Source: Planctopirus ephydatiae
GTDB taxonomy: Bacteria; Planctomycetota; Planctomycetia; Planctomycetales; Planctomycetaceae
Reading direction: 5' to 3'
Assembly: GCF_007752345.1 (NCBI RefSeq)
Contig: NZ_CP036299.1
Span: 5,118,001-5,182,000 of the forward strand
DNA length: 64,000 nucleotides
Below, in pieces: positions 17,442-31,434 of the stretch. The position numbers were made by a program, and so were the translations under genes. The notes under the pieces are model-generated. The model saw nothing but the letters and a program-made list of their open reading frames with translations. It ran no database searches and had not been told where the DNA came from. Positions within the stretch are counted from its first letter, which is position 1, and every line of letters starts with the position of its first letter.

Positions 17442-18057
17442 CGAGGAAGCTGCCTCTGCATAAGAAGGGATGTTGACAGTAGGTATATTGACAGTGCCGA
17501 ATTCGATGAGCCTGCCGGGGGATACAGATCGGCGAACTGTAGATCGATCAAAAAAGTGCTGCAATCCCGAGTTCACGCCCGAATGTCAGGTTTCACCCGC
17601 AATTTCTGCCTGTCGCGATTCCTTTCGCCTTAAGACAGATCAGGTTGTTGACGGAAAACAATAAGTGTTCATGTGATAAGTTCCCGATAGTTTCAGTGGG
17701 GATTCTCGCTGTTTCTCATGAAAGAAAGCCGATTGCCGGTGGAATTTCCCCATAGGGGAACAAGCTTGGCAAAAACTTGCGAATGTTTGGCCAGGAACCG
17801 TTTGCCTTTGGCCCGCATGGCTTTTATGCTCGCCAGCGATAATTCATCAACAAGTTTGGATGAATGAGTGGGTGATTCCTGTGGAGAATCCTCAGGTTTT
17901 CCCGCGACCGAATTGTGTGATCATCCGTGTAAAGGACTATCGGCTATTCTTATTCAGCTCTAAACTTGTTTAGACAACTGTTTGCATCGCCAGTTCTGAC
18001 TGTAGAATCTTAGTCTCGACTTTGCCCCACACTTTGTTGCCTGCCTGGAACCAATGC
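17442..18057. promoter_or_regulatory. Divergent spacer, parvulin gene / MFS gene
   Basis: This is a 616-base non-coding stretch between divergent genes. A small inverted motif, TTTCCCCATAGGGGAA, occurs near 17746 and could be an operator or a hairpin, but nothing further supports this. No gene is seen. Confidence 0.35.
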
Positions 18058-19599
18058 ATGTCTTCTTCACCTGCGGGCCTCTTGCCACCTCCGCCAGTTC
18101 CCATGGATATGACCCGCTGGCTGATCTGCACGATGGCCGCCATCGGCTTTGCGTTCGACATTTATGAGCTGCTGATGCTCCCCTTGATTGTCAGGCCTGC
18201 TCTGCTGGAACTTACCGGCGCACAACCAGGGAGCAAAGAGTTTCTGCAATGGGTCGGGATTCTGTTTTACGTCCCCGCATTTGCCGGGGGAGCATTTGGC
18301 CTCCTGGGAGGTTATCTGACAGATCGACTCGGTCGCCGCAGTGTGCTCACCTGGAGCATTCTGCTCTATGCCGGTTCTGCTTTTCTGGCTGGCTTTTCCA
18401 CCAATATCTGGATGCTGCTCTTTTTCCGCTGCACGATGTTTGTTGGCGTCTGCGTTGAGTTTGTGGCTGCGGTAGCCTGGCTGGCGGAATTATTCCCGAA
18501 TCCAACTCAGCGCGAAAGTGTTCTCGGCTACACCCAGGCGTTTTCTTCGATTGGCGGCTTGCTGGTCGCAGTGATGAATGGACTGGCGATACGTTTTGCT
18601 CCCGAATTGCCTGCCATTTTCATTCCAGAGATTGTCTCAGGCTTCTGGGGCACCATTGAACCGGCACACCATCACGAAGCCTGGCGATACACTTTGATGT
18701 CGGGGCTGATTCCTGCCATTCCCCTCATCATCATCAGACCATTTCTTCCCGAGTCGCCCGCCTGGAAAGAAAAGGCATCCAGCGGCACCTTGCGGCGGCC
18801 CAGCATTGCGCAACTCTTTTCGCCCCAGTTGCGTAAGACGACTATTGTGACCACGTTAATGTTCGCCATGAGTTATGGAGCTGCTTTTGGTGCCATCCAA
18901 CAGATTCCTCAAATTGTCCCAGGACTGGCCGATGTGAAGGAAAAAGCGATCGCTGCAGCCGAAAAGGCCAAGTTGCCACCCGATCCTGAACTGGCGAAAA
19001 AAGCCAAAATGGGTGCCATGCGGCAATACGAGCAGAAGATCGCCAGTGAATACACCAAGGTTCAGGAAATCGGCGGCCTCGTAGGTCGCTTTCTGCTGGC
19101 ATTACTGGCTGTGCGAATTCTCAGCCGGCGTAAACTCCTCTGGTGCCTGCAGATCCCGGGGATGATTGTTCTCCCGGCAGTCTTTGCCCTGTTTCTTCAG
19201 GTGGAAAATCGCACGTACTTCGAGATCGATCTCAATTCCATCTATCTGGGAGTTCTTCCCATCACCACGGTCTCGCTGGGTGTGTTTATCGCCGGCCTGT
19301 TTGTCGTGGGACAATTCAGTTTCTGGGGGAACTATTTGCCGCGTGTCTATCCACTTCATCTGCGTGGAACGGGAGAGAGCTTTGCTGCCAATATTGGTGG
19401 CCGGATGATCGGTACCAGTTTTGCGCTCGTCACGACGACCATTGCCGGGTTCTTGACAGCCAGTGCTGGTGCCGCTGGTGGGTTCTCGCCACCGATGGCC
19501 TTCTCTATTGCAGCTGCCAGCGTGGCCGGGTTTGTCACGTTAGTGGGCTTTGCTTTGAGTTTCTTCCTTCCCGAACCATCTGCAACAGATATGGATTAA
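18058..19599 (+). CDS. MFS transporter, sugar/metabolite:H+ symporter type
   Basis: This 513-residue membrane protein has about twelve hydrophobic helices. The loop between helices 2 and 3 carries the MFS signature GGYLTDRLGRRSVL, and WLAELFPNPTQRESVLG matches the metabolite/sugar symporter branch. A charged insert (EKAIAAAEKAKLPPDPELAKKAK) in the central cytoplasmic loop is unusual. The substrate cannot be read from sequence. ATG at 18058 is used because the longer frame needs a TTG. The gene is followed by the acyl-activating enzyme gene about 120 bases on, so it might be linked to that lipid locus, but this is only positional. Confidence 0.85.
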   Translation: MSSSPAGLLPPPPVPMDMTRWLICTMAAIGFAFDIYELLMLPLIVRPALLELTGAQPGSKEFLQWVGILFYVPAFAGGAFGLLGGYLTDRLGRRSVLTWSILLYAGSAFLAGFSTNIWMLLFFRCTMFVGVCVEFVAAVAWLAELFPNPTQRESVLGYTQAFSSIGGLLVAVMNGLAIRFAPELPAIFIPEIVSGFWGTIEPAHHHEAWRYTLMSGLIPAIPLIIIRPFLPESPAWKEKASSGTLRRPSIAQLFSPQLRKTTIVTTLMFAMSYGAAFGAIQQIPQIVPGLADVKEKAIAAAEKAKLPPDPELAKKAKMGAMRQYEQKIASEYTKVQEIGGLVGRFLLALLAVRILSRRKLLWCLQIPGMIVLPAVFALFLQVENRTYFEIDLNSIYLGVLPITTVSLGVFIAGLFVVGQFSFWGNYLPRVYPLHLRGTGESFAANIGGRMIGTSFALVTTTIAGFLTASAGAAGGFSPPMAFSIAAASVAGFVTLVGFALSFFLPEPSATDMD

Positions 19600-19721: not shown

Positions 19722-20819
19722 ATGGCTATGGTTGATACTGCCAAGATTGCTGCTGCCAAAGATCGACTTGATCAGCACACCGTGGAGACGATTCACTGGC
19801 ATTTCAGCCCGGAGACAGGTTCTCCTTTCTGGCTGGAAAAGGCCAAGACTTTTAACTTTGACCCTCTCAAAGAGGTGAAAAGCTTTGAAGACCTCAAAAA
19901 GTTCCCTCACTTTGAAGACGACTGGCTGCGTGGCGGGCCGATCAGTCGCTGGGTTCCCAAGGGCCTGGCCGGTAAACCTGTCTATGTTTTCGAAACAGGC
20001 GGAACGACCGGTTTGCCCAAGAGCCGCATGGTCATTGAAGATCATTGGATCGATTACGAAGAGTTCTCCAAAACATTGGACGACAAATGGTTCCCTCAGG
20101 GATCCAACTGGCTGATGCTCGGCCCTTCCGGCCCACGCCGACTTCGCCTGGCGATTGAGCATCTGGCTCAATGTCGCGGCGGGATCTGCTTCTGTATCGA
20201 CCTTGACCCACGCTGGGTCGTTAAGCTGCTCAAGCAGGGCCGCATCAAAGAAGCCGAAGACTATAAGAATCACTGCATTGATCAGGTGCTGACAATTCTC
20301 AAAGGTGGGCACGATATCAAGTGCGCCTTTATGACTCCCAAGCTGCTGGAAGCACTAGCTCTCAAGCTGATTGATAATGGGAGCAGTATTGCTGAAGAAG
20401 GGATTACAGGGATCTTTGGCGGCGGGACAGAATTCTCGCCCCAGTGGTATCGCTACTGCTGTGAAGAACTTCTCGGGCCGGATGTTTTCATGACTCCCAC
20501 TTACGGCAACACGCTCATGGGCCTCGCCTGTAGCAAACCTTTCGATCCTGCAGATAACTATAAGATTACCTACCATGCGCCCCAGCCGCGGGCGGCTATC
20601 GAAGTCGTCGATTTCAAGGACTACAACAAAGTGGTGGACTACGGCCAGACAGGCCGCGTGAAGCTCTACACGATGACAAAGGAACTCTTTGTGCCGGGCT
20701 TCATGGAGCGAGACGAAGGCGAACGTGAACTCCCCTGTGATAAGTTCCCCTGGGATGGCATCAGCGGCACCCGCCCATTCCATGAGATTGCTAAGAGTAC
20801 CACTGTGGGGGTTTACTAG
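19722..20819 (+). CDS. ANL-superfamily acyl-activating enzyme (PaaK/LuxE-like)
   Basis: This 365-residue protein resembles the short PaaK/LuxE branch of adenylate-forming enzymes. The phosphate-binding loop ETGGTTGLPKSR is near residues 91-102, and FGGGTEFSP and TPTYGNTLMG follow as later core motifs. The mobile C-terminal domain of full acyl-CoA ligases seems reduced or missing, as in LuxE. It would adenylate a carboxylate and pass the acyl group to a thiol. A downstream aldehyde-dehydrogenase-fold protein could reduce the product. ATG has AGGAA upstream. The substrate is unknown; aryl carboxylates are an alternative to fatty acids. Confidence 0.75.
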   Translation: MAMVDTAKIAAAKDRLDQHTVETIHWHFSPETGSPFWLEKAKTFNFDPLKEVKSFEDLKKFPHFEDDWLRGGPISRWVPKGLAGKPVYVFETGGTTGLPKSRMVIEDHWIDYEEFSKTLDDKWFPQGSNWLMLGPSGPRRLRLAIEHLAQCRGGICFCIDLDPRWVVKLLKQGRIKEAEDYKNHCIDQVLTILKGGHDIKCAFMTPKLLEALALKLIDNGSSIAEEGITGIFGGGTEFSPQWYRYCCEELLGPDVFMTPTYGNTLMGLACSKPFDPADNYKITYHAPQPRAAIEVVDFKDYNKVVDYGQTGRVKLYTMTKELFVPGFMERDEGERELPCDKFPWDGISGTRPFHEIAKSTTVGVY

Positions 20820-20855
20820 GCCATAAGCTCATCCATTTTTGCCTGGAGGTTTTAC

Positions 20856-21110
20856 ATGTCCTCAGCAACGGACGCGACGGCCGATAAGGCCAACTGGCTT
20901 TTCAAGCATCACATCGCTGGCCAGTTAATTGGGGAAAATCCAGAACTGTTTATCGCTATCGATGTCAATTCTGGTGATTACGAAGTCAACCCCAAAGGGA
21001 TATTGGCAATACAGCAAGTTCGTGCGAGACATCCGGAAAGTAAGCCATTTCTCAGGAAAATTGGTAGCCCGCTGGCTTTCTCAATGGGCTCGTGGCGTCG
21101 TGTTTCGTAG
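20856..21110 (+). CDS. Small partner protein of an aspartic protease cassette
   Basis: This 84-residue protein lacks signal or membrane segments. The segment ELFIAIDVNSGDYEVNPKGI followed by RARHPESKPFLRKIGS resembles short proteins that commonly precede retropepsin-like genes in bacterial genomes, some annotated as antitoxin-like. GGAGG seven bases before the ATG gives a strong start. Its stop is followed at once by the protease-like gene. No function is proven for these pairs. Confidence 0.6.
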   Translation: MSSATDATADKANWLFKHHIAGQLIGENPELFIAIDVNSGDYEVNPKGILAIQQVRARHPESKPFLRKIGSPLAFSMGSWRRVS

Positions 21111-21113
21111 TTG

Positions 21114-21503
21114 ATGGAAGGATCTTGCTTGAAGGGATACATCAACGACCGACTCGAACCAGTACTGCCAGTGTACTTGCAGGGGAATGACGATCGATCT
21201 CTTCAGGTGGAAGCGATCATCGACACAGGTTGTACAACCTATCTTGTGTTAGATCATGGTGCCATACAGGAACTGGGGCTAACTCCAATTGGCACTGGCC
21301 AGTACCTCACTGCTGATGGAAGCCTGGCTATTGGAGACATCTTTCAAGTTGATGTTGTTACGGAGTTTGGTCGTGCCACTGTCGAGGCCTATTGTGGCGG
21401 TACCTCAACACTCATTGGCATGGCTTTGCTGGCAGGGTTTTCACTTCCAATGAACATTGTCGCAGGTGGTGAGGTTGTACTAGATACTCTTGAAGACACC
21501 TGA
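21114..21503 (+). CDS. Retropepsin-like (clan AA) aspartic protease
   Basis: This 129-residue protein has the aspartic protease signature EAIIDTGCTTYLVLD near residues 36-50, with DTG as the catalytic motif. It also has the second-strand TADGSLAIGD and a hydrophobic-Gly stretch LIGMALLAGFSLPMNIV. One DTG per chain implies a dimer, as in retropepsins. The start is uncertain: ATG 21114 lies three bases after the upstream stop, and a TTG at 21129 would match the usual family N-terminus. It forms a two-gene cassette with the preceding small protein. Confidence 0.7.
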   Translation: MEGSCLKGYINDRLEPVLPVYLQGNDDRSLQVEAIIDTGCTTYLVLDHGAIQELGLTPIGTGQYLTADGSLAIGDIFQVDVVTEFGRATVEAYCGGTSTLIGMALLAGFSLPMNIVAGGEVVLDTLEDT

Positions 21504-21585
21504 AGTTTGAGCTGGCAACACTCCAACACTCCAACACGATCACTTTAAAATTATATTTTCTTACTCTTACATATCGAGTCCTACC

Positions 21586-23022
21586 ATGTTCGATGTTCCC
21601 ATTCTTCGTTTTGGTAAATCTTACGACAGTATGGAAAAAGTGGATATTAACCACTTTGAAACTGGCGAAACTCTGGCCAGACTGCATCAGGCCACAGGTG
21701 CCATGGTGAAGATGGATCTGCGAAAAGCCCAGCAGTCGCGTGAGGCACTCCGCCAGTTCTCCATCGACGATCTGATTGAGAAATGCACAAAGGCAGCCGA
21801 CCTTTACCTCAATGCCGAACTCCCTTGCGGCACCGGAATGCTCACTCCTGAGCAGTTCTGCAACATGCAGTCGGCGACGACAGGCATTCCCATTTCGCTC
21901 TGTGCCTTCAATATGCGAAAGAATGCGTACGTCCTCTCGCATATGGGCGAAGTGATCGACGCGCTCACACGCGGCCTGCCCCACGAGATTCTCTCGAAGG
22001 GCTACGGCATGGAATCGCGGGGAGTCATGGTCAGCTATCAGGCCACAACTCCCATTCTGGGGGCTGTTCTCCCCTCGAATTCGCCCGGTGTTCATACACT
22101 CTGGCTGCCAGCGATTCCCATGCAGATTGGTCTGATGCTCAAGCCAGGCTCACAGGAGTTCTGGACACCGTATCGCATCACAGAAGCGTTTTTTGCTGCA
22201 GGAATTCCTCGCGAGGCCATTTCGCTGTATCCCGGTGGACACGATGTCGGCGGTGGACTCTTGAGCGATGCTCATCGCTGCATGATCTTCGGCAGCCAGC
22301 AGACTGTTCAGCAGCATGCAGGCAATCCCCGCGTCTCTGTCCATGGCCCGGGGTTCAGCAAGATCATTCTGGGCGATGACCTCGTTGATCACTGGGAAGA
22401 TTACCTCGAGACCATGGTCGACAGCGTGGCGGCCAATGGTGGTCGCGGCTGTATAAATTGCTCCAGCATCTATGCCTCCCGGCATACGAAAGACATTGCC
22501 CAGGCAATCGCGAAGAAGATGTCCGAAATCGTGCCTCTTCCCGCAACGGATCCCAAAGCGATTCTCGCAGCATCCACGACAGCGGGTGTGGCTGAAAGTG
22601 TCTCGAACCAGATCGATGAAGGTCTGAAGGATGGCTACTCGACCGATGTCAGTGCGGCTTTCCATGGTGGCAACCGCATCGGGAAACTGGGGAAGTCCGA
22701 ATACCTGCTCCCGACGGTGATTCACTGTTCGTCACCCGAAGCCAAACTCGCCAATGCCGAGTACATGTTCCCCTTTACTTCGGTCGTCGAATGCCCACAG
22801 AATCAGATGATCAAGGCCATTGGCCCCACACTGGTCTGCACTGCGATCACGGAAGATCCCAAGTTCAGCCAGCAACTGCTCGATGCCTATAATATCGACC
22901 GGTTGAACATTGGCCGGGTCAAGACGGTCCAATTGAACTGGCTCCAGCCGCACGAAGGAAACCTGGTCGAGTTTCTCTTTAGAAACCGCGCCTTCCAGAA
23001 CAGCCCACCCCCGGCACATTAG
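21586..23022 (+). CDS. Aldehyde-dehydrogenase-fold acyl reductase
   Basis: This 478-residue protein has the ALDH fold: a cofactor region TTPILGAVLPSNSPGVHTLWLPA, a PGG turn, and the catalytic loop GGRGCINCS with Cys289. The general-base Glu motif (usually ELGG) reads VSVHGPG, so the water-activating Glu is missing. That loss is typical of acylating ALDHs and LuxC-type acyl reductases, which work on thioesters. With the upstream LuxE/PaaK-like enzyme it could reduce an activated acid to an aldehyde. It lies directly before the Pfa-like synthase gene. An ordinary aldehyde oxidation role is less likely, but not excluded. Confidence 0.78.
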   Translation: MFDVPILRFGKSYDSMEKVDINHFETGETLARLHQATGAMVKMDLRKAQQSREALRQFSIDDLIEKCTKAADLYLNAELPCGTGMLTPEQFCNMQSATTGIPISLCAFNMRKNAYVLSHMGEVIDALTRGLPHEILSKGYGMESRGVMVSYQATTPILGAVLPSNSPGVHTLWLPAIPMQIGLMLKPGSQEFWTPYRITEAFFAAGIPREAISLYPGGHDVGGGLLSDAHRCMIFGSQQTVQQHAGNPRVSVHGPGFSKIILGDDLVDHWEDYLETMVDSVAANGGRGCINCSSIYASRHTKDIAQAIAKKMSEIVPLPATDPKAILAASTTAGVAESVSNQIDEGLKDGYSTDVSAAFHGGNRIGKLGKSEYLLPTVIHCSSPEAKLANAEYMFPFTSVVECPQNQMIKAIGPTLVCTAITEDPKFSQQLLDAYNIDRLNIGRVKTVQLNWLQPHEGNLVEFLFRNRAFQNSPPPAH

Positions 23023-23312
23023 GCATCGTTCAGCGTCAGCTCTCCGAAGTCATGAATTTAGGACGATCTTTGACCGCACTGTTCTTGAGAGAGTCTCTTC
23101 TCCCGAGAATGGTGCGTTGTCGTTAATGAACCTCACAACCTGCCCGAATCCGAGCTGATCGCACTTTGCTTTGGAAGGAGTTGGCTTTGCCAGTCGCCTG
23201 AGGTTTGCTGTCTGGGTAGACTGGGGGGGTTGTTGCTGCCAAGAGCTACGCCTGGATCTGTGAACAGACGTGAGCCATTTTGAAATTCGACTTTTGAATG
23301 ATCTGACGCCCT

Positions 23313-26300
23313 GTGTCTCAACGCTCCCCAAGCTCTACTGATTCCCGTGAGAAAATCGCCATTGTTGGCCTGGGAGGGTACTTTCCCGGCGCGGGTGATT
23401 TGCATGGCTTCTGGGGCAATGTTCACTCAGGCGTTGATGCCGGGAGAAGCGTTCCGCAGGGTCGCTGGAGGTTGGAGAGCCGCTATGCACTGGGGCCGTT
23501 TTCTCAACCGGATAAAGCCCTCTCGACCTGGGGCTGCTATCTCGATGAAGGGGTCTGGAATCTCTTTCCCCACAGGCCGTCCATTTCCCAACATCTGCCC
23601 TCCATCACAGAAGCCGAATGGAACGGACTCGATCCCCTCTTTCGCCTCGGGCTGAAGACGGCCTTCCAGACCATCGAGAGCACTCAAAACTCAACGCTAC
23701 AAAGAACAGACCAGAGCAGGCCAGCCGCCCCGCTTAACCTACAGACGTTTGACCCGGGCCGCTGTGGTGTGATTCTCGGCAGTATTGCTCTCCCCATCGA
23801 AGCCATCAACGATCTGTGCTGGGATGTGCTGGGGCCGAGATACCTCTCGAAAGTGATCGAAGTCTCCACGGGAACAAAATCACACGGGCCCCACGGATCA
23901 GCAGATCCCCAGCGCTGGTCTGAGCAGAACCGTTACGCACTGGGTTTGCCCGCCGCTCTGATTGCTCGCGAACTCGGCTGGCGTGGCCCGGCATTCACGC
24001 TCGATGCCGCCTGTGCCTCATCGATCTACGCCGTCAAGCTAGCCATGAATGAACTCCGCGCAGGTCGAGCCGATGTGATGCTGGCGGGTGGGCTTTCCCG
24101 ACCCGATTGCCAGTACACGCAGATTGGATTCTCGCAGCTCAAGGCGCTCTCTCAAGGGCAGAAGTGCCGTCCACTCGATGCCCGTGCCGATGGGCTGGTC
24201 GTGGGCGAAGGGGCCGGGATGTTCCTGCTGATGAGGCTCCCGGATGCGATCGCAGCCGGTCTGGAAATTCATGCAGTGCTGGTGGAGGCGGGGCTTTCGA
24301 ATGATCGGGGTGGCAGCCTGCTTTCACCTCGGACAGAAGGCCAGTTACGGGCCATGCGCGACGCTTATCAGCGGGCGGGATGGTTGCCCGAGAGTGTCGA
24401 TCTCATTGAATGCCATGCCACAGGAACACCTGTCGGAGACCAGGTCGAAATTGCCAGCCTGCATGAACTCTGGCGGCAGGCGGGCTATCGCTCGTCGCGG
24501 GCTGTGCTGGGAGCGGTCAAATCCAATGTGGGCCATCTGCTGACGGGTGCCGGTGCTGCAGCTCTTATGAAAGTCGTGCTGGCAATCAAGCACCGCGTTT
24601 TGCCCTGTACGGCCAATTATGAGCAGCCAGCCGGTCTGCTGCAGGAACCACATTCTCCCTTTGCAGTTTTACGCGAGAGTCAACGCTGGGAAGCCCCAGG
24701 TCATGGTCTCCCCCGGCGTGCCGCTGTCAATGGTTTTGGATTTGGAGGAATTAACGGGCATCTGCTGGTGGAAGAGTTTCTCGAAGAAGCTTCTGAAAAG
24801 GAGACGGCGTTTCCTTCGACTCACCACCCGGTCCAGGTGAGTGTCGCTGCGGATCTGACGACGCCTCAGCCAGAACAAGAGCCAGTCGCGATTATTGGTT
24901 TCTCGGCAGCACTTGGCGAAGCATCGATCGAGCAACTGTTCGAGCGGTGGCAAAGCCGACATCCCGAACGGGAAGCTGCGCGAGCGGAAGATCCTCAACT
25001 CTCCTGGCCCGTGCAGCGTTTTCGTATTCCCCCCGTCGAGCAGCAGGATATGCTCCCTCAACAGGGTCTGATGCTCGATGTGGCGAGCGAAGCCAAAGCG
25101 CACGCGGGACTCGAAGGTTCGCTAGGAGATCGCTGCGGGCTGTTTGTCGGCATTGCCCTCGATATCGAATCGTCGAACTTTCATTTACGCTGGCGACTCG
25201 AACAGGAACTGCGCGACTCGGGAATCACTGCGACCGAACATCACGCAGCAGTCATCGAATCTCTGGTGAATGGGCTGCATCCTCCGCTCACCCCCAATCG
25301 AGTGATGGGGAATCTTGGTGGGATTGTGGCCAGTCGCGTCGCCCGCGAACTCGATTGCGGCGGCCCCTCGTTTGTCCTTTCGAGCGAAGAGGCGAGCAGT
25401 TTTGAAGCGATCCGTCAGGCTAGCGAAGCGTTACGATTAAAAGAGATCGATCTGGCACTGGCCTGTGCTGTCGATCTGCCGGATGCTGATCAAACCGGGT
25501 TGTGGAAGAGTACGCTTCCCGACAACTCGACCTATGGTGCCGGTGCTGTCGTTCTCAAACGGCTCTCGGATGCCCAGCGCGATGGCGACCAGATCTATGC
25601 CTTGATTGAAGAGGTCACGTCCGGTGCCGGTGCGGCTTCATCTGAGGAATTGCCACCCGTCTTCCCTTCGATCTCGGCTCTCCTGGGGCCTGCCGGTGTG
25701 GCTTCCGGGATGATCGACACCATTGCCGCTGTGGCTTGCCTCGCGACGCGATCACTCTCACCCGGTGCAGCCGATGCCCTCGGGAAAAGCGCGAAGGGCT
25801 GGCAATACTGGTTGAGAAATCGAGCTGAAGGTTCTCGCCGGGCCATTCTTCGAAGTCAATCTCCCATCGGTTTATGGAGTCTCCTCACGCTCAAGGAAAC
25901 TCCTCAACCGGTGTTTTCATCGCTGGAAGCGACCAGACTACACTTGACCGAATTGCCGCTGGTCATCTGGCCGGAACCACAAACTTCTGGTAGCGAGATT
26001 GGTACCGTTGCAGAAGCTTCGCCTGCTCACCTGACAACCCAACATCAACTGGCAGAGCGGGCGCGTTCGTTACTGGCTGCGTGGGAGAGTTCGGCTGTCA
26101 ATGGTTTGAGTGGGCGGCATGTGGGGCCCAGTCGGTGGCAGCACTTTTGCGAGGTGTACGCCGCCCGTCCGCAAGGAGTGACGCGACCACTCGCCATCCT
26201 CATGGTTTCATCGAATGCATCGGTGGCAAGCCTGCTGCAGCAAATCACGACGACTCAAGGCCAGGAAGAGTTGAGCCAAGAGGGTGTGCTCTACCTTTCT

Positions 26301-29300
26301 GCAGCACCTCAAGATCCCCAGCTGGCCTTTGTCTTCCCGGGTTCGGGGAGTCATTTTCTGGGAATGGGACGAGAGCTTGGGCAGGCTTTCCCGGAGATCC
26401 TCGAACAGCAGGATCGCGAGAATCTGCGACTGGCAGATCAGTACCGGCCTGACCTGTTGTGGAATGGCGAATCGTCAGCAGCCATTGCCGACGATCATCG
26501 GGCGATGATTTTCGGACAGGTGACGCTGGCCACGTTGATGTGCGATCTCCTGGCCCGTTTTGGAGTGGTTCCTCAAGTCGCGATTGGCAACAGCCTCGGG
26601 GAATCCTCAGCACTCTTCGGATTAAGAATCTGGACAGCCCGCGATGAAATGCTGTCGCGCATGCTGGCCTCGCGACTGTTTACCGGTCTATTAACACCAC
26701 CGTTCGATACGGCCCGCCAGGCATGGAACATTCCTCCCGATGAGCCTGTCCCCTGGACGAGTGGAGTGGTCGAATGCCCGGCTGATCGACTCTGGCCAGC
26801 CATTGCCAGAAAACCAAAGGTGGCATTACTGATTGTCCTCGCTCCGCAAAGATGCCTGATTGGCGGCGATGCAGCTCAAGTCGCCGAAATGCTGCAAGAG
26901 CTTTCGCTCTCGATCGCGCCTTTGCCGGCCCCCAGTACAGTCCATTTAAGTTTCGTACAGCAGGTGGAAGATCAGTGGCGGGCACTGCATCTGTTGCCTG
27001 TTCAAGAGCGACCAGAGATCACGGTCTACAGCACAGCGACATCGGCGGCATACATCCCTTCAACGACTGCCTGTGCTGAAGCCATTACTTCGCAGGCACT
27101 GCATACGATTGATTTCCCGGCAGTCATTGATGCCGCCTACCAGGAGGGAACCAATCTGTTTCTGGAGATCGGCCCGGGCAGCACCTGCACGCGTTTAATT
27201 GAAACCATTCTCGTTGACCACGATCAGCAAGTTTCCGTGCGGAGTGCCTGCCCGCTGACAGCTCATCCCGTGCGACATTTTGTCCGCACACTCGCATGGC
27301 TCGCTGTCCGGGGAGTGGCTGTCGATTTTGCTCCACTCTTTGCACCCTGCCAGCTCACGAAGCTCTTTGAAGGAAAACGAAAGCCGTTGGGCCTTCCCAC
27401 CAGCCCGCAGATCGAGATCCCGATCCGACGTTTGAACTGGAAGCAGATCCCCGTTGTGACAAGCGAAGTTGCGGGTGTTCTGCAAGAATTACTGCGGAAT
27501 GAAAGTTCTCGCTCAGAGACTCACCCTCACCCTGGCCCTCTCCCTGAGGGAGAGGGGATGATTGCTGAACAACTGATTGATACCAAGACATCAAGTGCGA
27601 CGCCCATGACGATGAATCCCCCAGAAACTCTCGAGGCAGCCGAAGCCGCTTATCTGGCATTCGAAGAGCGGTTAGCCCGCTTGCAGGCAGCGGGTGAGTT
27701 GGAGATCACTCCTCATGAGCAAGCTGTTCTGAGTACGAATTCGGTTTCTTCGAAACGCGACAAATCGACACCACCGCGGAGTCTCGCGCGCGAGGAATGC
27801 CTGGAGTTCGCGATTGGAAAAATTGGCGAGGCACTGGGGCCACTCTTTGCAGCGGCCGACCAATATCCCACGCGCGTGCGGCTGCCGGATGAGCCACTCA
27901 TGCTGGTGGATCGAATCACGAACATCGAAGGCGAACCACTGTCGATGTCGCACGGCTGCGTGGTGACCGAACACGATGTGCATGCAGCGCGGTGGTATCT
28001 GGATGGAGGACGGATCCCGACAGCGATTGCGGTGGAATCGGGTCAGGCCGATCTCTTTCTCGCTGGCTGGCTGGGGATTGATCTGCAAACCCGTGGCCTG
28101 GCGGTTTATCGTCTGCTCGATGCGATTGTCACATTCCACCGGGGTCTGCCTGTTCCTGGCGAAACGATTGTCTATAACATTCGCATTCTCAAATTCTTCC
28201 AGCAGGGTGAGACCTGGCTGTTCAAATTTGAGTTCGATGGAACAGTCAATGGCGAGCCACTCATTACGATGCGCGAAGGGTGTGCCGGGTTCTTTACGGA
28301 ATCGGCCCTGGCAGCAGGGAAAGGGATTATCCACAGCACACTCGATCTCGCACCGCGGCCTGGCAAGCTCCCTGCCGATTGGCGCGAACCCGTTGCCATC
28401 ACACCGGGGAGCCTGAGTGACGCACAGGTCGAACGGTTGAGAGAGGGGGATCTTGTCGGAGCTTTTGGTCAGACATTTGCCAATCTGCCATTGCACAAGC
28501 CTTATACCGTTCCGGGTGGCAAGCTGAGGCTCGTGGATCGAGTCCTCGAGATTGAACCTGGCGGGGGAAAGTATGGTCTGGGCCGGATTCGTGCCGCGCT
28601 CGATATTCATCCCGACGACTGGTTCCTCGAATGTCACTTCTGTGATGACCATGTGATGCCGGGGACTTTGATGTACGAGTGCTGCCTGCACACGCTGCGG
28701 ATTTATCTGCTCCGCATGGGCTGGGTGAGTGAAACCGGTGAGATCGTTTCGGAACCTGTCGTGGGGATCGAGAGTCGGCTCAAGTGCCGGGGGCAGGTGC
28801 TGGCCTCGACGAAAGAGGTCTGGTACGAAGTGACAATTCGCGAGCTGGGTTATGGAACGGATGGTTCCAATAGCGATGCTTATTGCCTGGCCGACGCCCT
28901 GATGTTCGCAGATGGCAAGCCGATTGTGGAAATCAGCAATATGTCGTTGCGGTTCACGGGGCTGACGAAAGCCCGTGTGGAAGCGATCTGGGCGGGACAG
29001 AAAACTGTCGAAATGGGACGGCCCACGACACAACAGTACGATGTGCGGCCTGCCATCTATCCTCTCGAACGGATTACGGCCTATTCGATTGGCAAGCCTT
29101 CCGAAGCTTTCGGGCCCGAGTACACCGTTTTCGACAATGAGCGCAAGATTGCGCGACTGCCCGGCCCTCCGTTTCAGTTTTTAGATCGGATTGTGGAAGT
29201 CGGTGGGCCACCTTTTGTGATGAAGGCTGGCTGTCATTGCGTCGCCCAGTACGATGTCCCTGTCGATGCCTGGTACTTCAGCGCCAATCGACAGCCCGAA

Positions 29301-30137
29301 ATGCCATTTTCAGTGCTACTGGAAACCGCTTTGCAGCCTTGTGGCTGGCTGGCGGCTTATGCCGGTTCGGCACTCACGAGCGAGACTGATCTCAAGTTTC
29401 GCAATCTGGGAGGCAAGGCGACTCAGCATCGGCCCGTGACTCCCGAGATTGGTACGTTGACCACCACAGCCCGCATGACGCAGGCATCGATGTCAGGAGG
29501 CATGATCATACAGCACTTCTCGATGGAGATGTTTGCGCGAGATGAGCGTGTCTATTCGGGAACGACTTACTTCGGGTTCTTTTCGGCAGCATCGCTCGCC
29601 AATCAGGTCGGTCTGCGAGATGCCAAACGTGTTGTGCTGGAGAATTACGCTGCTTCGGAAAGCTTCTCGCAAGCGCCTCCCTTTCCTGAAGCGAGTTATT
29701 CTTTTGTCGATCGAATCACGCATTGCCTTCTGCAGCAGGGAAGTGTTCCCGGGCGGCCCGAGCTGGCTGGTTTTGTCCGTGGGGAGGCCCAGGTCAATCC
29801 CGCAGCGTGGTACTACAAGGCGCACTTCTACGAAGACCCGGTGATGCCTGGATCGCTGGGGCTGGAAGCGTTTTTGCAGGTGATCAAGCACTGGATGGTC
29901 AAAGCCGAAATCGTGAGTACACATGGCGGTGTGAATTTCGAAACACCCGTGTGTGGTACACCCCAGGCGTGGGTCTATCGTGGTCAGGTGATTCCCAAAG
30001 ACCGCCTGGTGACGATTGATGCCGAGATCGTTTCGGTTGATCGAACAACCAATACGGTCATTGCCAACGGCTGGCTGGAAGTCGATGGGCGGGTGATCTA
30101 TCAGATGACGGGTTGGGCAGTGCGAGGTGTGGGTTGA
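23313..30137 (+). CDS. PUFA-synthase-like multidomain polyketide/fatty acid synthase
   Basis: This 2274-residue protein resembles PfaC with an acyltransferase inserted. KS (about 13-470) has Cys234 in DAACASS, His368 (CHATGT) and His407 (SNVGHL). A second KS-like domain (about 525-880) has Glu693 at the Cys position, like a chain-length factor. AT (about 1010-1330) has Ser1094 in GNSLGE. A low-complexity linker follows, then four hotdog units: pseudo (about 1540-1700), active His1775 (CHFCDDHVMPG), pseudo (about 1945-2080), and active His2171 (AHFYEDPVMPG). No ACP, ketoreductase or enoylreductase is seen, so partner proteins are needed. The start is GTG. The OleA gene follows. Confidence 0.88.
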   Translation: MSQRSPSSTDSREKIAIVGLGGYFPGAGDLHGFWGNVHSGVDAGRSVPQGRWRLESRYALGPFSQPDKALSTWGCYLDEGVWNLFPHRPSISQHLPSITEAEWNGLDPLFRLGLKTAFQTIESTQNSTLQRTDQSRPAAPLNLQTFDPGRCGVILGSIALPIEAINDLCWDVLGPRYLSKVIEVSTGTKSHGPHGSADPQRWSEQNRYALGLPAALIARELGWRGPAFTLDAACASSIYAVKLAMNELRAGRADVMLAGGLSRPDCQYTQIGFSQLKALSQGQKCRPLDARADGLVVGEGAGMFLLMRLPDAIAAGLEIHAVLVEAGLSNDRGGSLLSPRTEGQLRAMRDAYQRAGWLPESVDLIECHATGTPVGDQVEIASLHELWRQAGYRSSRAVLGAVKSNVGHLLTGAGAAALMKVVLAIKHRVLPCTANYEQPAGLLQEPHSPFAVLRESQRWEAPGHGLPRRAAVNGFGFGGINGHLLVEEFLEEASEKETAFPSTHHPVQVSVAADLTTPQPEQEPVAIIGFSAALGEASIEQLFERWQSRHPEREAARAEDPQLSWPVQRFRIPPVEQQDMLPQQGLMLDVASEAKAHAGLEGSLGDRCGLFVGIALDIESSNFHLRWRLEQELRDSGITATEHHAAVIESLVNGLHPPLTPNRVMGNLGGIVASRVARELDCGGPSFVLSSEEASSFEAIRQASEALRLKEIDLALACAVDLPDADQTGLWKSTLPDNSTYGAGAVVLKRLSDAQRDGDQIYALIEEVTSGAGAASSEELPPVFPSISALLGPAGVASGMIDTIAAVACLATRSLSPGAADALGKSAKGWQYWLRNRAEGSRRAILRSQSPIGLWSLLTLKETPQPVFSSLEATRLHLTELPLVIWPEPQTSGSEIGTVAEASPAHLTTQHQLAERARSLLAAWESSAVNGLSGRHVGPSRWQHFCEVYAARPQGVTRPLAILMVSSNASVASLLQQITTTQGQEELSQEGVLYLSAAPQDPQLAFVFPGSGSHFLGMGRELGQAFPEILEQQDRENLRLADQYRPDLLWNGESSAAIADDHRAMIFGQVTLATLMCDLLARFGVVPQVAIGNSLGESSALFGLRIWTARDEMLSRMLASRLFTGLLTPPFDTARQAWNIPPDEPVPWTSGVVECPADRLWPAIARKPKVALLIVLAPQRCLIGGDAAQVAEMLQELSLSIAPLPAPSTVHLSFVQQVEDQWRALHLLPVQERPEITVYSTATSAAYIPSTTACAEAITSQALHTIDFPAVIDAAYQEGTNLFLEIGPGSTCTRLIETILVDHDQQVSVRSACPLTAHPVRHFVRTLAWLAVRGVAVDFAPLFAPCQLTKLFEGKRKPLGLPTSPQIEIPIRRLNWKQIPVVTSEVAGVLQELLRNESSRSETHPHPGPLPEGEGMIAEQLIDTKTSSATPMTMNPPETLEAAEAAYLAFEERLARLQAAGELEITPHEQAVLSTNSVSSKRDKSTPPRSLAREECLEFAIGKIGEALGPLFAAADQYPTRVRLPDEPLMLVDRITNIEGEPLSMSHGCVVTEHDVHAARWYLDGGRIPTAIAVESGQADLFLAGWLGIDLQTRGLAVYRLLDAIVTFHRGLPVPGETIVYNIRILKFFQQGETWLFKFEFDGTVNGEPLITMREGCAGFFTESALAAGKGIIHSTLDLAPRPGKLPADWREPVAITPGSLSDAQVERLREGDLVGAFGQTFANLPLHKPYTVPGGKLRLVDRVLEIEPGGGKYGLGRIRAALDIHPDDWFLECHFCDDHVMPGTLMYECCLHTLRIYLLRMGWVSETGEIVSEPVVGIESRLKCRGQVLASTKEVWYEVTIRELGYGTDGSNSDAYCLADALMFADGKPIVEISNMSLRFTGLTKARVEAIWAGQKTVEMGRPTTQQYDVRPAIYPLERITAYSIGKPSEAFGPEYTVFDNERKIARLPGPPFQFLDRIVEVGGPPFVMKAGCHCVAQYDVPVDAWYFSANRQPEMPFSVLLETALQPCGWLAAYAGSALTSETDLKFRNLGGKATQHRPVTPEIGTLTTTARMTQASMSGGMIIQHFSMEMFARDERVYSGTTYFGFFSAASLANQVGLRDAKRVVLENYAASESFSQAPPFPEASYSFVDRITHCLLQQGSVPGRPELAGFVRGEAQVNPAAWYYKAHFYEDPVMPGSLGLEAFLQVIKHWMVKAEIVSTHGGVNFETPVCGTPQAWVYRGQVIPKDRLVTIDAEIVSVDRTTNTVIANGWLEVDGRVIYQMTGWAVRGVG
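27518..27558. repeat. Dispersed palindromic repeat inside the synthase gene
   Basis: The segment CCCTCTCCCTGAGGGAGAGGG is palindromic and flanked by GACTCACCCTCACCCTGG. It encodes HPHPGPLPEGEG in the linker between the AT and dehydratase domains (residues about 1403-1415). This peptide is a known outcome of a widespread bacterial repeat family. A related, inverted copy is at 48335-48379. Confidence 0.75.
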
Positions 30138-30270
30138 TCGTCGAGTCCCTGCGATGAGTTGTCAGGCGGGGCCACACCTGCGAATCTGTCAGGGGTTCGA
30201 GCGTTGAATATCCCGTGTGGAGATTCGAAACGACCGGCTCCGATTCCTGAAAACGGATCCTTTCATCGAT

Positions 30271-31434
30271 ATGCGTTACTCCAAAGTCTATATTGAAACG
30301 ATTGGTTACGAACTGGCGCCCGAAGTTGTTTCCTCGGTCGAGCTGGAAGAACGCCTGGCACTGGTTTACGAGAAGCTCAAAGTGAGCCCCGGGCAGCTTG
30401 AAGCCTGGACGGGGATCAGCGAACGCCGCTGGTGGCCGGAAGGCTATAAACTCACCAGTGGAGCAACAGCAGCGGCCCGCAGGGCACTCGAACAATCGAA
30501 CGTTTCGACGCGCGATCTTGGTGTGCTGATCTATGCCGGTGTCTGCCGGGAACAGTTTGAGCCGGCAACCGCGTGTGGCGTGGCAGCGAATTTGCGACTC
30601 TCCGATGACGTGGCGGTCTACGATCTCAGCAATGCCTGCCTGGGTGTGCTCAATGGGATCATCGATATTGCCAACCGGATTGAACTGGGACAGATTCGTG
30701 CGGGGATGGTCGTTTCCTGCGAATCGGCTCGCGAGATTATCGAGTTCACCATCCAGCGGTTGCTCGAAGACCCCACCATGGAGAATCTGACACATTCACT
30801 GGCCACGTTGACAGGTGGAAGTGGCGCGGTGGCTGTGATCCTCACCGATGGATCCTTCTCGCGAACACGCGGTCATAAACTGCTGGGTGGCAGCTTATTG
30901 GCTGCTCCCGAGCATCATGAACTCTGCCGCTGGGGTTTTGAATCTCTTTTACCGGCTGCCGTGAACAAGGTCGAGCAGGTGCTTCCCAGTGCCGTGACAC
31001 AAACGAGGCTGGGGTCACTCATGCCGCAACTGGTACAGCAGAAAGTGAGCGGGATCTTGCCCGCTAAACTGTCCCACGCCTTCCACCAGTTTATGCAGAC
31101 CGATTCGATTTCCGTCATGAAGTATGGTGTCGAACTGGGAGTCAAAACGTGGGCTTCGATGCTGGCCCGCTTTGGGCTGAAGCCACAGGAAATCGACAAA
31201 GTGATCTGTCATCAGGTGGGGAAGGGACATCGGGAGCAGGTTCTGAAATCGCTGGGAATTCCGCTGGAAAAAGACTTCCCGACCTTTCCCTTTCTCGGGA
31301 ACATGGGGACAGTCTCTTTGCCAATGACCGCTTCACTGGCGGAAGAGCGTGGTTTTCTGAAGAAGGGCGACCGCGTGGCATTTCTCGGGATTGGGAGCGG
31401 ACTCAACTGCCTCATGCTGGCTGTCGACTGGTAG
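30271..31434 (+). CDS. oleA: OleA-type thiolase-superfamily condensing enzyme
   Basis: This 387-residue protein matches OleA, which joins two acyl-CoA chains head to head in long-chain olefin biosynthesis. Catalytic Cys123 lies in LSNACLGVLNG, His314 in ICHQVG and Asn344 in LGNMG. Glu97 in QFEPATA matches the OleA glutamate supplied across the dimer. The C-terminal FLKKGDRVAFLGIGSGLNC is characteristic. ATG at 30271 fits the family N-terminus (RYSKVYIE); a GTG at 30217 would extend it. It lies 133 bases after the Pfa-like gene on the same strand. FabH-like function is the alternative, but the OleA features are stronger. Confidence 0.82.
   Translation: MRYSKVYIETIGYELAPEVVSSVELEERLALVYEKLKVSPGQLEAWTGISERRWWPEGYKLTSGATAAARRALEQSNVSTRDLGVLIYAGVCREQFEPATACGVAANLRLSDDVAVYDLSNACLGVLNGIIDIANRIELGQIRAGMVVSCESAREIIEFTIQRLLEDPTMENLTHSLATLTGGSGAVAVILTDGSFSRTRGHKLLGGSLLAAPEHHELCRWGFESLLPAAVNKVEQVLPSAVTQTRLGSLMPQLVQQKVSGILPAKLSHAFHQFMQTDSISVMKYGVELGVKTWASMLARFGLKPQEIDKVICHQVGKGHREQVLKSLGIPLEKDFPTFPFLGNMGTVSLPMTASLAEERGFLKKGDRVAFLGIGSGLNCLMLAVDW

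Follow-up and report, generated by a model that had tools for sequence, protein, structure and literature searches.

The stretch of DNA analyzed here (the window) comprises 64,000 nucleotides of Planctopirus ephydatiae, positions 5118001 to 5182000 of the single 5.21-Mb contig (C1) of the source genome, G000, and it carries pfaBC, a gene for a synthase of the type that makes polyunsaturated fatty acids, followed by oleA. We conclude that the pfaBC-oleA pair is very probably one of five dispersed pieces of a polyunsaturated-hydrocarbon route of the known Pfa plus OleABCD type. The pieces lie at 5.14 Mb (pfaBC-oleA), 1.52 Mb (pfaD-pfaA), 4.29 Mb (oleB), 0.38 Mb (oleC), and 3.09 Mb (oleD), and in the sister genome G092 the pathway genes are likewise spread over five places. 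An earlier note on this DNA had grouped pfaBC and oleA with an adenylating ligase gene and an aldehyde dehydrogenase (ALDH) gene upstream of them as one lipid locus with no characterized counterpart. These four genes are not one unit, and what the chromosome holds is a known pathway whose operon has come apart and not a new pathway. The analysis behind this reading was made on sequence and drew on protein family models and homology for the identity of the genes, on co-occurrence across genomes, on the operon-type descent of OleA and OleC, on active-site motifs, and on purifying selection; the identity and descent of OleB and OleD are weaker.

The four open reading frames (ORFs) of the earlier note were found open where it had placed them. 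The product of pfaBC, described there as a Pfa-like synthase, was confirmed as such by a family-model search, which returned two ketoacyl-synt matches, one acyltransferase (AT) match, and four FabA-like stretches and gave no match to a ketoreductase (KR) or an acyl carrier protein (ACP) within the protein. The first ketosynthase (KS) lies at about 23349-24623 and the PfaB-type AT at about 26319-27251, although the score of the protein with TIGR02816 (pfaB_fam), 78 bits, was below the cut-off of 144. The motifs located were DAACAS at residue 231, LSSEEAS at 689, GNSLGE at 1092, ECHFCDD at 1773, and KAHFYED at 2169; the active Cys was missing from the second KS, which resembles a chain-length factor (CLF). 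The catalytic His motif was present in just the second (ECHFCDD) and fourth (KAHFYED) dehydratase domains, the His being absent from the corresponding AARWYLD (1558) and DAWYFSAN (1985), and the four domains were therefore read as two inactive/active pairs. Such pairing is the general pattern of PfaC. Judged from its domains, the synthase is a PfaB-PfaC fusion. A palindromic element resembling repetitive extragenic palindromes, with the core CCCTCTCCCTGAGGGAGAGGG, was also observed at 27521-27557, in frame within the linker of the synthase, where it is translated as HPHPGPLPEGEG; it was the sole match in the window to the 15-base pattern searched on both strands.

The identification of OleA in the earlier note was upheld by model NF006720 (Table 1), and a conserved Met19 suggests that the true start of oleA is at 30271. 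As expected of a thiolase-fold enzyme of this kind, the active-site residues C141 (catalytic Cys), E115-P116 (EP motif with the general-base Glu), H332, and N362 were invariant among 20 aligned proteins and are as in the Xanthomonas campestris enzyme; Glu117-Pro has been given as a mark of OleA in the part of the source available to us (PMC7064751). The predicted OleA structure aligned with X. campestris OleA over 342 residues (Z score 45.8, root mean square deviation 3.5), and the first 18 ranks were filled by Xanthomonas OleA entries and one X. oryzae homologue labeled FabH, with the next row at Z 36.7. The earlier note had also proposed that the genome be searched for a PfaA-like protein with ACP repeats and a KR and for PfaD, and both were found at 1.51-1.52 Mb. 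The PfaA scored 1390 bits with TIGR02813 (cut-off 1010) and contains the motif DLGIDSI twice, and PfaD scored 622 bits with TIGR02814 (cut-off 449). OleB, OleC, and OleD had been reported as absent, which holds locally and fails for the genome, since candidates for all three were located elsewhere in the chromosome; the OleC scored 720 bits with NF006754 (cut-off 478).

Table 1. Pathway genes and neighboring features (plain coordinates are those of the window; L006 is a region of G000)
Feature	Location	Strand	Evidence or remark
pfaBC fusion, 2274 aa	23313..30137	+	KS, CLF-like KS, PfaB-type AT, two inactive/active FabA-like dehydratase pairs
oleA	30217..31434	+	79 bp 3' of pfaBC; NF006720, 515 bits (cut-off 285)
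49-aa insertion in OleA, residues 244-292	30946..31092	+	alignment with relatives
PfaA	L006:6181-13074 (G000:C1 1.51-1.52 Mb)		KS, AT, 2 PP-binding, KR, PS-DH
PfaD enoyl reductase	L006:13127-14833 (1.51-1.52 Mb)		TIGR02814
OleC	G000:C1:380298-381965		NF006754
OleD candidate	G000:C1:3089304-3090266		53% to operonic OleD of G007
OleB candidate	G000:C1:4294786-4295628		62% to operonic OleB of G007
EhpF-like adenylating enzyme (ligase), 365 aa	19722..20819	+	EhpF match; neighbor outside the hydrocarbon pathway
EhpG-like ALDH-family reductase	21586..23022	+	partner of the ligase; neighbor outside the hydrocarbon pathway
Small clan AA aspartic-protease-like ORF	21111..21503	+	between ligase and ALDH; no sign of a link
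Major facilitator superfamily transporter	18022..19599	+	upstream of ligase; no evidence of a link

Co-occurrence was measured across the order, in 170 genomes. PfaD was present in 28 of them and so was the dehydratase region of PfaBC, and the two sets of genomes were identical; in three members of the set (G001, G107, and G108) the version is divergent (36-44% identity to PfaBC and 49-52% to PfaD). Of the 25 genomes whose PfaBC is strong, 24 also encode the 405-aa OleA type at an identity of at least 70%; among the matches listed, the remaining 145 genomes showed no OleA of this type, and most of those listed have another, shorter OleA at 43-49%. This short form is kept together with OleC and OleD in genomes of the order that lack Pfa (for example, in regions L068, L069, and L083). 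The divergent genes form a second cluster of PfaC-PfaA-PfaD type that is linked in G107 (L074, L090) and G001 (L091, L092), where it is without the 405-aa OleA type among the matches listed; G108 carries the genes.

The arrangement in other families was obtained from a search of 397 genomes of the class, which found OleA at E <= 1e-60 in 131 genomes, 23 of them in family f1; 20 regions picked for long contigs were fetched from the 131, eight from family f2 and 12 from family f3. PfaA, PfaBC, OleA, and OleB were consecutive and on one strand in all 20 regions, OleC and OleD were nearby in 17 (they were not found in L134, L146, and L150, and the OleC of L144 is split into two ORFs), and PfaD preceded PfaA in all six regions that were extended upstream. 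The operon order in the related families is thus pfaD-pfaA-pfaBC-oleA-oleB-oleC-oleD, and in the family of P. ephydatiae this operon is broken at gene boundaries. In G007 and G069, pfaBC-oleA-oleB-oleC-oleD are still together with pfaD on a separate contig; in G142, oleABCD are together with pfaBC on a different contig; in G000, pfaBC and oleA are still joined and oleB, oleC, and oleD each stand alone; and in G148 everything is apart save pfaD-pfaA. Because the same 28 genomes share the synthase genes and the gene order is intact in other families, we regard the locus in the window as a remnant of the broken operon. These results also bear on whether the synthase chiefly serves to supply membrane lipids with a polyunsaturated fatty acid, with OleA using other chains. 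Pfa synthases elsewhere make eicosapentaenoic or docosahexaenoic acid, according to the portions consulted of two papers (PMC3098273, PMC6463001), yet an OleA of the operon type tracks the synthase here, adjoining it in every one of the other-family regions and, among the matches listed for the order, accompanying it in all but one of the genomes with strong PfaBC and appearing in no others, so that this alternative was given little probability.

Trees of OleA and OleC were consistent with descent from the operon, and substitution rates with continued selection on the dispersed genes. The OleA and OleC of G000 fall with the operon-type proteins, set off from the Pfa-free set by branches with 100/100 support. 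The ratio of nonsynonymous to synonymous substitution rates (dN/dS) between G000 and G092 was determined for six pathway genes and was 0.049 for PfaD, 0.120 for PfaBC, 0.031 for OleA, 0.045 for OleB, 0.080 for OleC, and 0.085 for OleD; with values of 0.03-0.12, each of the six is maintained by selection. It could be supposed instead that OleA acts without OleBCD and that spontaneous decarboxylation yields a polyunsaturated ketone, since OleBCD are not near oleA in G000 and OleA lacking OleBCD gave a 31:8 ketone in Shewanella, as far as the source was available (PMC6463001). We consider this improbable, as the genome does have an OleC that descends from the operon, along with candidates for OleB and OleD, all of them under purifying selection.

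Several observations weigh against a dispersed Pfa-Ole pathway. The OleC did not reach the stricter olefin beta-lactone synthetase models (637 against 900 bits and 600 against 850). The top models of the OleD candidate are two OleD ones, yet it scored below the NCBI equivalog cut-offs (423/580 and 367/580), and the split of OleD from the Pfa-free set is weak (92/40). The OleB candidate matched haloalkane dehalogenase models alone, below cut-off, in a library that holds no dedicated OleB model; moreover, although the Pfa-positive OleB proteins form a clade (92/95), three Pfa-free OleB proteins sit beside it (95/90), and for this reason the OleB tree is undecided on operon descent. Among the Pfa-positive genomes, G147, an assembly of 1340 contigs, has PfaBC and PfaD and no strong OleA, the OleA of G139 is a fragment only, and a stop codon lies inside the OleA matches of G134 and G136. 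Among the 20 operon regions, L144 has its PfaBC split into three ORFs and L148 into two. The Pfa-positive genomes may also represent one or a few lineages, as co-occurrence counts genomes and not independent events. Finally, the reports of C31:9 come from genera other than the one studied here.

From characterized relatives we infer the following reactions and product. PfaA (KS-AT-2xACP-KR-DH, DH being dehydratase), PfaBC, and PfaD would assemble an ACP-bound polyenoyl chain out of malonyl units, with PfaBC supplying the chain-length factor, the PfaB-type AT, and the dehydratase/isomerase pairs and PfaD the enoyl reductase. OleA would then join two polyenoyl chains head to head to give a beta-keto acid, which OleD would reduce before OleC closes a beta-lactone and OleB takes off CO2. 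The end product would be a long polyene with an odd number of carbons, most likely of C31:8/C31:9 type. The earlier note had pointed to this route from synthase to OleA to long polyunsaturated hydrocarbons, and that part of it is well supported. A C31 polyene is the likeliest product because of three precedents, each taken from the part of the paper that we could consult. The Pfa synthase of the Shewanella model hands a 16:4 chain to OleA and OleABCD convert it to a 31:9 hydrocarbon (PMC6463001); Type I clusters, which have a pfaBC fusion, were suggested to be an olefin-precursor source in Deltaproteobacteria and a Planctomycete (PMC3098273); and Rattray and colleagues stated that hydrocarbons of the C31:8 and C31:9 types were already known from members of the Planctomycetes, citing the descriptions of Schlesneria paludicola and Singulisphaera acidiphila among others (PMC2649909).

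In the Shewanella hentriacontanonaene route (PMC6463001, seen in part), a PUFA-type synthase feeds OleA, and OleD, OleC, and OleB come next; candidates for all of these are present in G000. Unlike that route, the one proposed here has pfaB and pfaC fused, has its genes in five places, and has an OleA with a 49-aa insertion. The insertion was 49 aa long in all 13 Pfa-positive OleA proteins of the same family and 32-50 aa in all 12 from family f3, and the same position holds 9 aa in all eight Pfa-free relatives; in family f2 it was 57 aa in one of eight proteins and 10-12 aa in the remaining seven. Some f3 genomes outside the fetched regions match OleA over residues 18-248 only, and the insertion may be missing there. 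The predicted structure is unsure in this segment, the local confidence score (pLDDT) being below 50 across residues 246-287. It could be imagined that the insertion, which precedes the C-terminal half of OleA and, at lengths of 32-57 aa, was confined to Pfa-linked OleA in the rows examined, serves to dock OleA onto the synthase that carries the acyl chain and that partner recognition replaces gene linkage, in which case the operon could scatter into five or more loci in this family and still function. We consider docking unlikely, and our estimate, low from the start, was lowered further because seven of the eight Pfa-linked f2 proteins do without the insertion; as most f2 operons are without it, it is no general requirement of an OleA fed by Pfa.

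The two genes upstream of pfaBC have a different history. The closest solved structure to the ligase is EhpF (PDB 3hgu/3l2k; E = 4e-43), an enzyme of the phenazine (D-alanylgriseoluteic acid) pathway, and the match spans nearly the whole protein (residues 17-353 of 365). No Pfam family matched the ligase at E 0.001, and the earlier description of it as LuxE/PaaK-like was not borne out. LuxC and LuxE act by adenylation followed by reduction to an aldehyde. That general logic is shared by the pair, in which the sequence relative of the ligase is EhpF; a LuxC/LuxE identity was rejected, as neither family was matched at E 0.001 in Pfam-A, and the LuxC-like label of the ALDH fell with it. The observation that the ALDH lacks the general-base Glu stood: in alignments its catalytic Cys (C289) is kept, and VHGPGFSK occupies the site of the general-base Glu motif of ordinary ALDHs. 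Three plasmid-encoded partners of ligase homologues, 20-25% identical to the ALDH, likewise have the Cys and lack the Glu. Plasmid records matching the ligase numbered 28 (18 Streptomyces, four Pantoea, two Streptantibioticus, and one each from Halomarina, Halalkalicoccus, Escherichia, and Burkholderia), and among the four regions opened, an ALDH homologue adjoins the ligase homologue in Pantoea agglomerans, Burkholderia ubonensis, and Streptomyces sp. Mg1, its place being taken by a polyketide synthase (PKS) in Streptomyces sp. Mut1. A pair of this kind has been named ehpF/ehpG in Proteus mirabilis (PMC11278526, consulted in part). The ligase is 30-35% identical to the listed plasmid-borne relatives and shares with the EhpF/EhpG phenazine operon the adjacency of ligase and ALDH; unlike that operon, the planctomycete pair is near-universal in its family, and no phenazine genes were seen among the neighbors looked at.

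Of the 170 genomes of the order, 160 have the ligase and 156 the ALDH, whether the synthase is present or not, and dN/dS between G000 and G092 was 0.010 and 0.026, respectively; the aldehyde that so widespread and strongly conserved a pair would make may be the more interesting question. Both places were listed for 20 one-contig genomes. In 15 of these, less than 1 kb separates the two genes, and in the other five (G005, G014, G091, G149, and G157) they are apart; the one-contig genome G003 stands outside this count, as the place of its ligase was not among the matches listed. The pair was seen beside pfaBC only in genus g1, in G000, G092, and G093 (in G094 the two are on different contigs). 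Beyond this genus, G090, G134, G140, and G148 carry pair and synthase on a single contig, with 0.14-2 Mb between them; the remaining drafts have them on different contigs, an observation uninformative by itself. In G092, a 291-aa opposite-strand ORF (L056:15514-16389), with no Pfam match, stands between the ALDH and pfaBC and is absent there in G000 and G093. The earlier note had all four genes possibly serving a single pathway that leads to aldehydes, ketones, alcohols, or a novel product, and their common strand and closeness in G000, G092, and G093 accord with this. The idea is nonetheless very improbable, given the frequency of the pair against 28 of 170 genomes for the synthase and the phenazine or aromatic gene sets in which its nearest outside relatives lie, and the intervening ORF and the large distances outside the genus show that the four are not one locus. 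Co-conservation thus held for the synthase with OleA and failed for the ligase and ALDH as members of the set, and the supposed novelty of the set dissolved with the finding of PfaA, PfaD, and OleBCD candidates in the chromosome. Because the pair occurs without the synthase, is distant from it outside genus g1, and is separated from it in G092, it reads as a separate two-enzyme carboxylate-to-aldehyde reductase of EhpF/EhpG type that is upstream by chance.

Other features were noted at the loci visited. A downstream HD-domain gene was dropped as a partner, since among the fetched regions it adjoins oleA only in genus g1, and promoter-like and terminator-like sites showed no excess over shuffles. 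Upstream of pfaD lies a type III polyketide synthase of the chalcone/stilbene synthase family (L006:16202-17350). A 3523-aa PKS at 3.14 Mb (L007:9416-19987; G000:C1:3137416-3147987) has two KS domains, an AT, four ACPs, an AAT (acyl-CoA:6-aminopenicillanic acid acyltransferase) domain between the ACPs and the KR, and DH domains; as a missing PfaA it was ruled out, having its own KS pair, AT, and AAT block, and it is the protein at 1.51 Mb that exceeds the cut-off for PfaA. At about 4.79-4.81 Mb of the contig (L005, L008) are a 2286-aa PKS frame, a KASIII-like gene, and several KAS II-like genes.

Neither the reaction types nor the link between Pfa and Ole is novel, and Ole genes in Planctomycetes have been published, as the accessible parts of two papers indicate (PMC7158056, PMC10176705). 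Among the open-library papers listed on Pfa or Ole genes or C31 polyenes in Planctomycetes, we recognized no account of the scattered arrangement, and as far as this search shows, three points are new: that a pfaBC-oleA locus elsewhere in the chromosome completes the Type J synthase, that the operon has dispersed by degrees with its genes kept under selection, and that OleA bears an insertion. In the excerpt seen, Type J was described from Planctomyces limnophilus as two genes only, pfaD then pfaA, apparently partial and with three ACPs in PfaA (Shulse and Allen 2011, PMC3098273). The same pfaD-pfaA order occurs at 1.52 Mb in G000; unlike Type J, the PfaA here has two ACPs and a DH, and the missing pfaBC, a fusion common to Type I clusters and this synthase, was found at 5.14 Mb beside oleA. 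The partial Type J cluster of P. limnophilus is probably the other half of a Pfa-Ole pathway. Taken together, the above results complete the partial synthase of Planctopirus-like bacteria, propose a gene set behind the C31 polyenes stated to exist in Planctomycetes, and provide a natural series graded from operons still whole to genes fully dispersed, with the tested genes still under purifying selection. Genome mining that relies on clusters would overlook the pathway here, its genes being unlinked.

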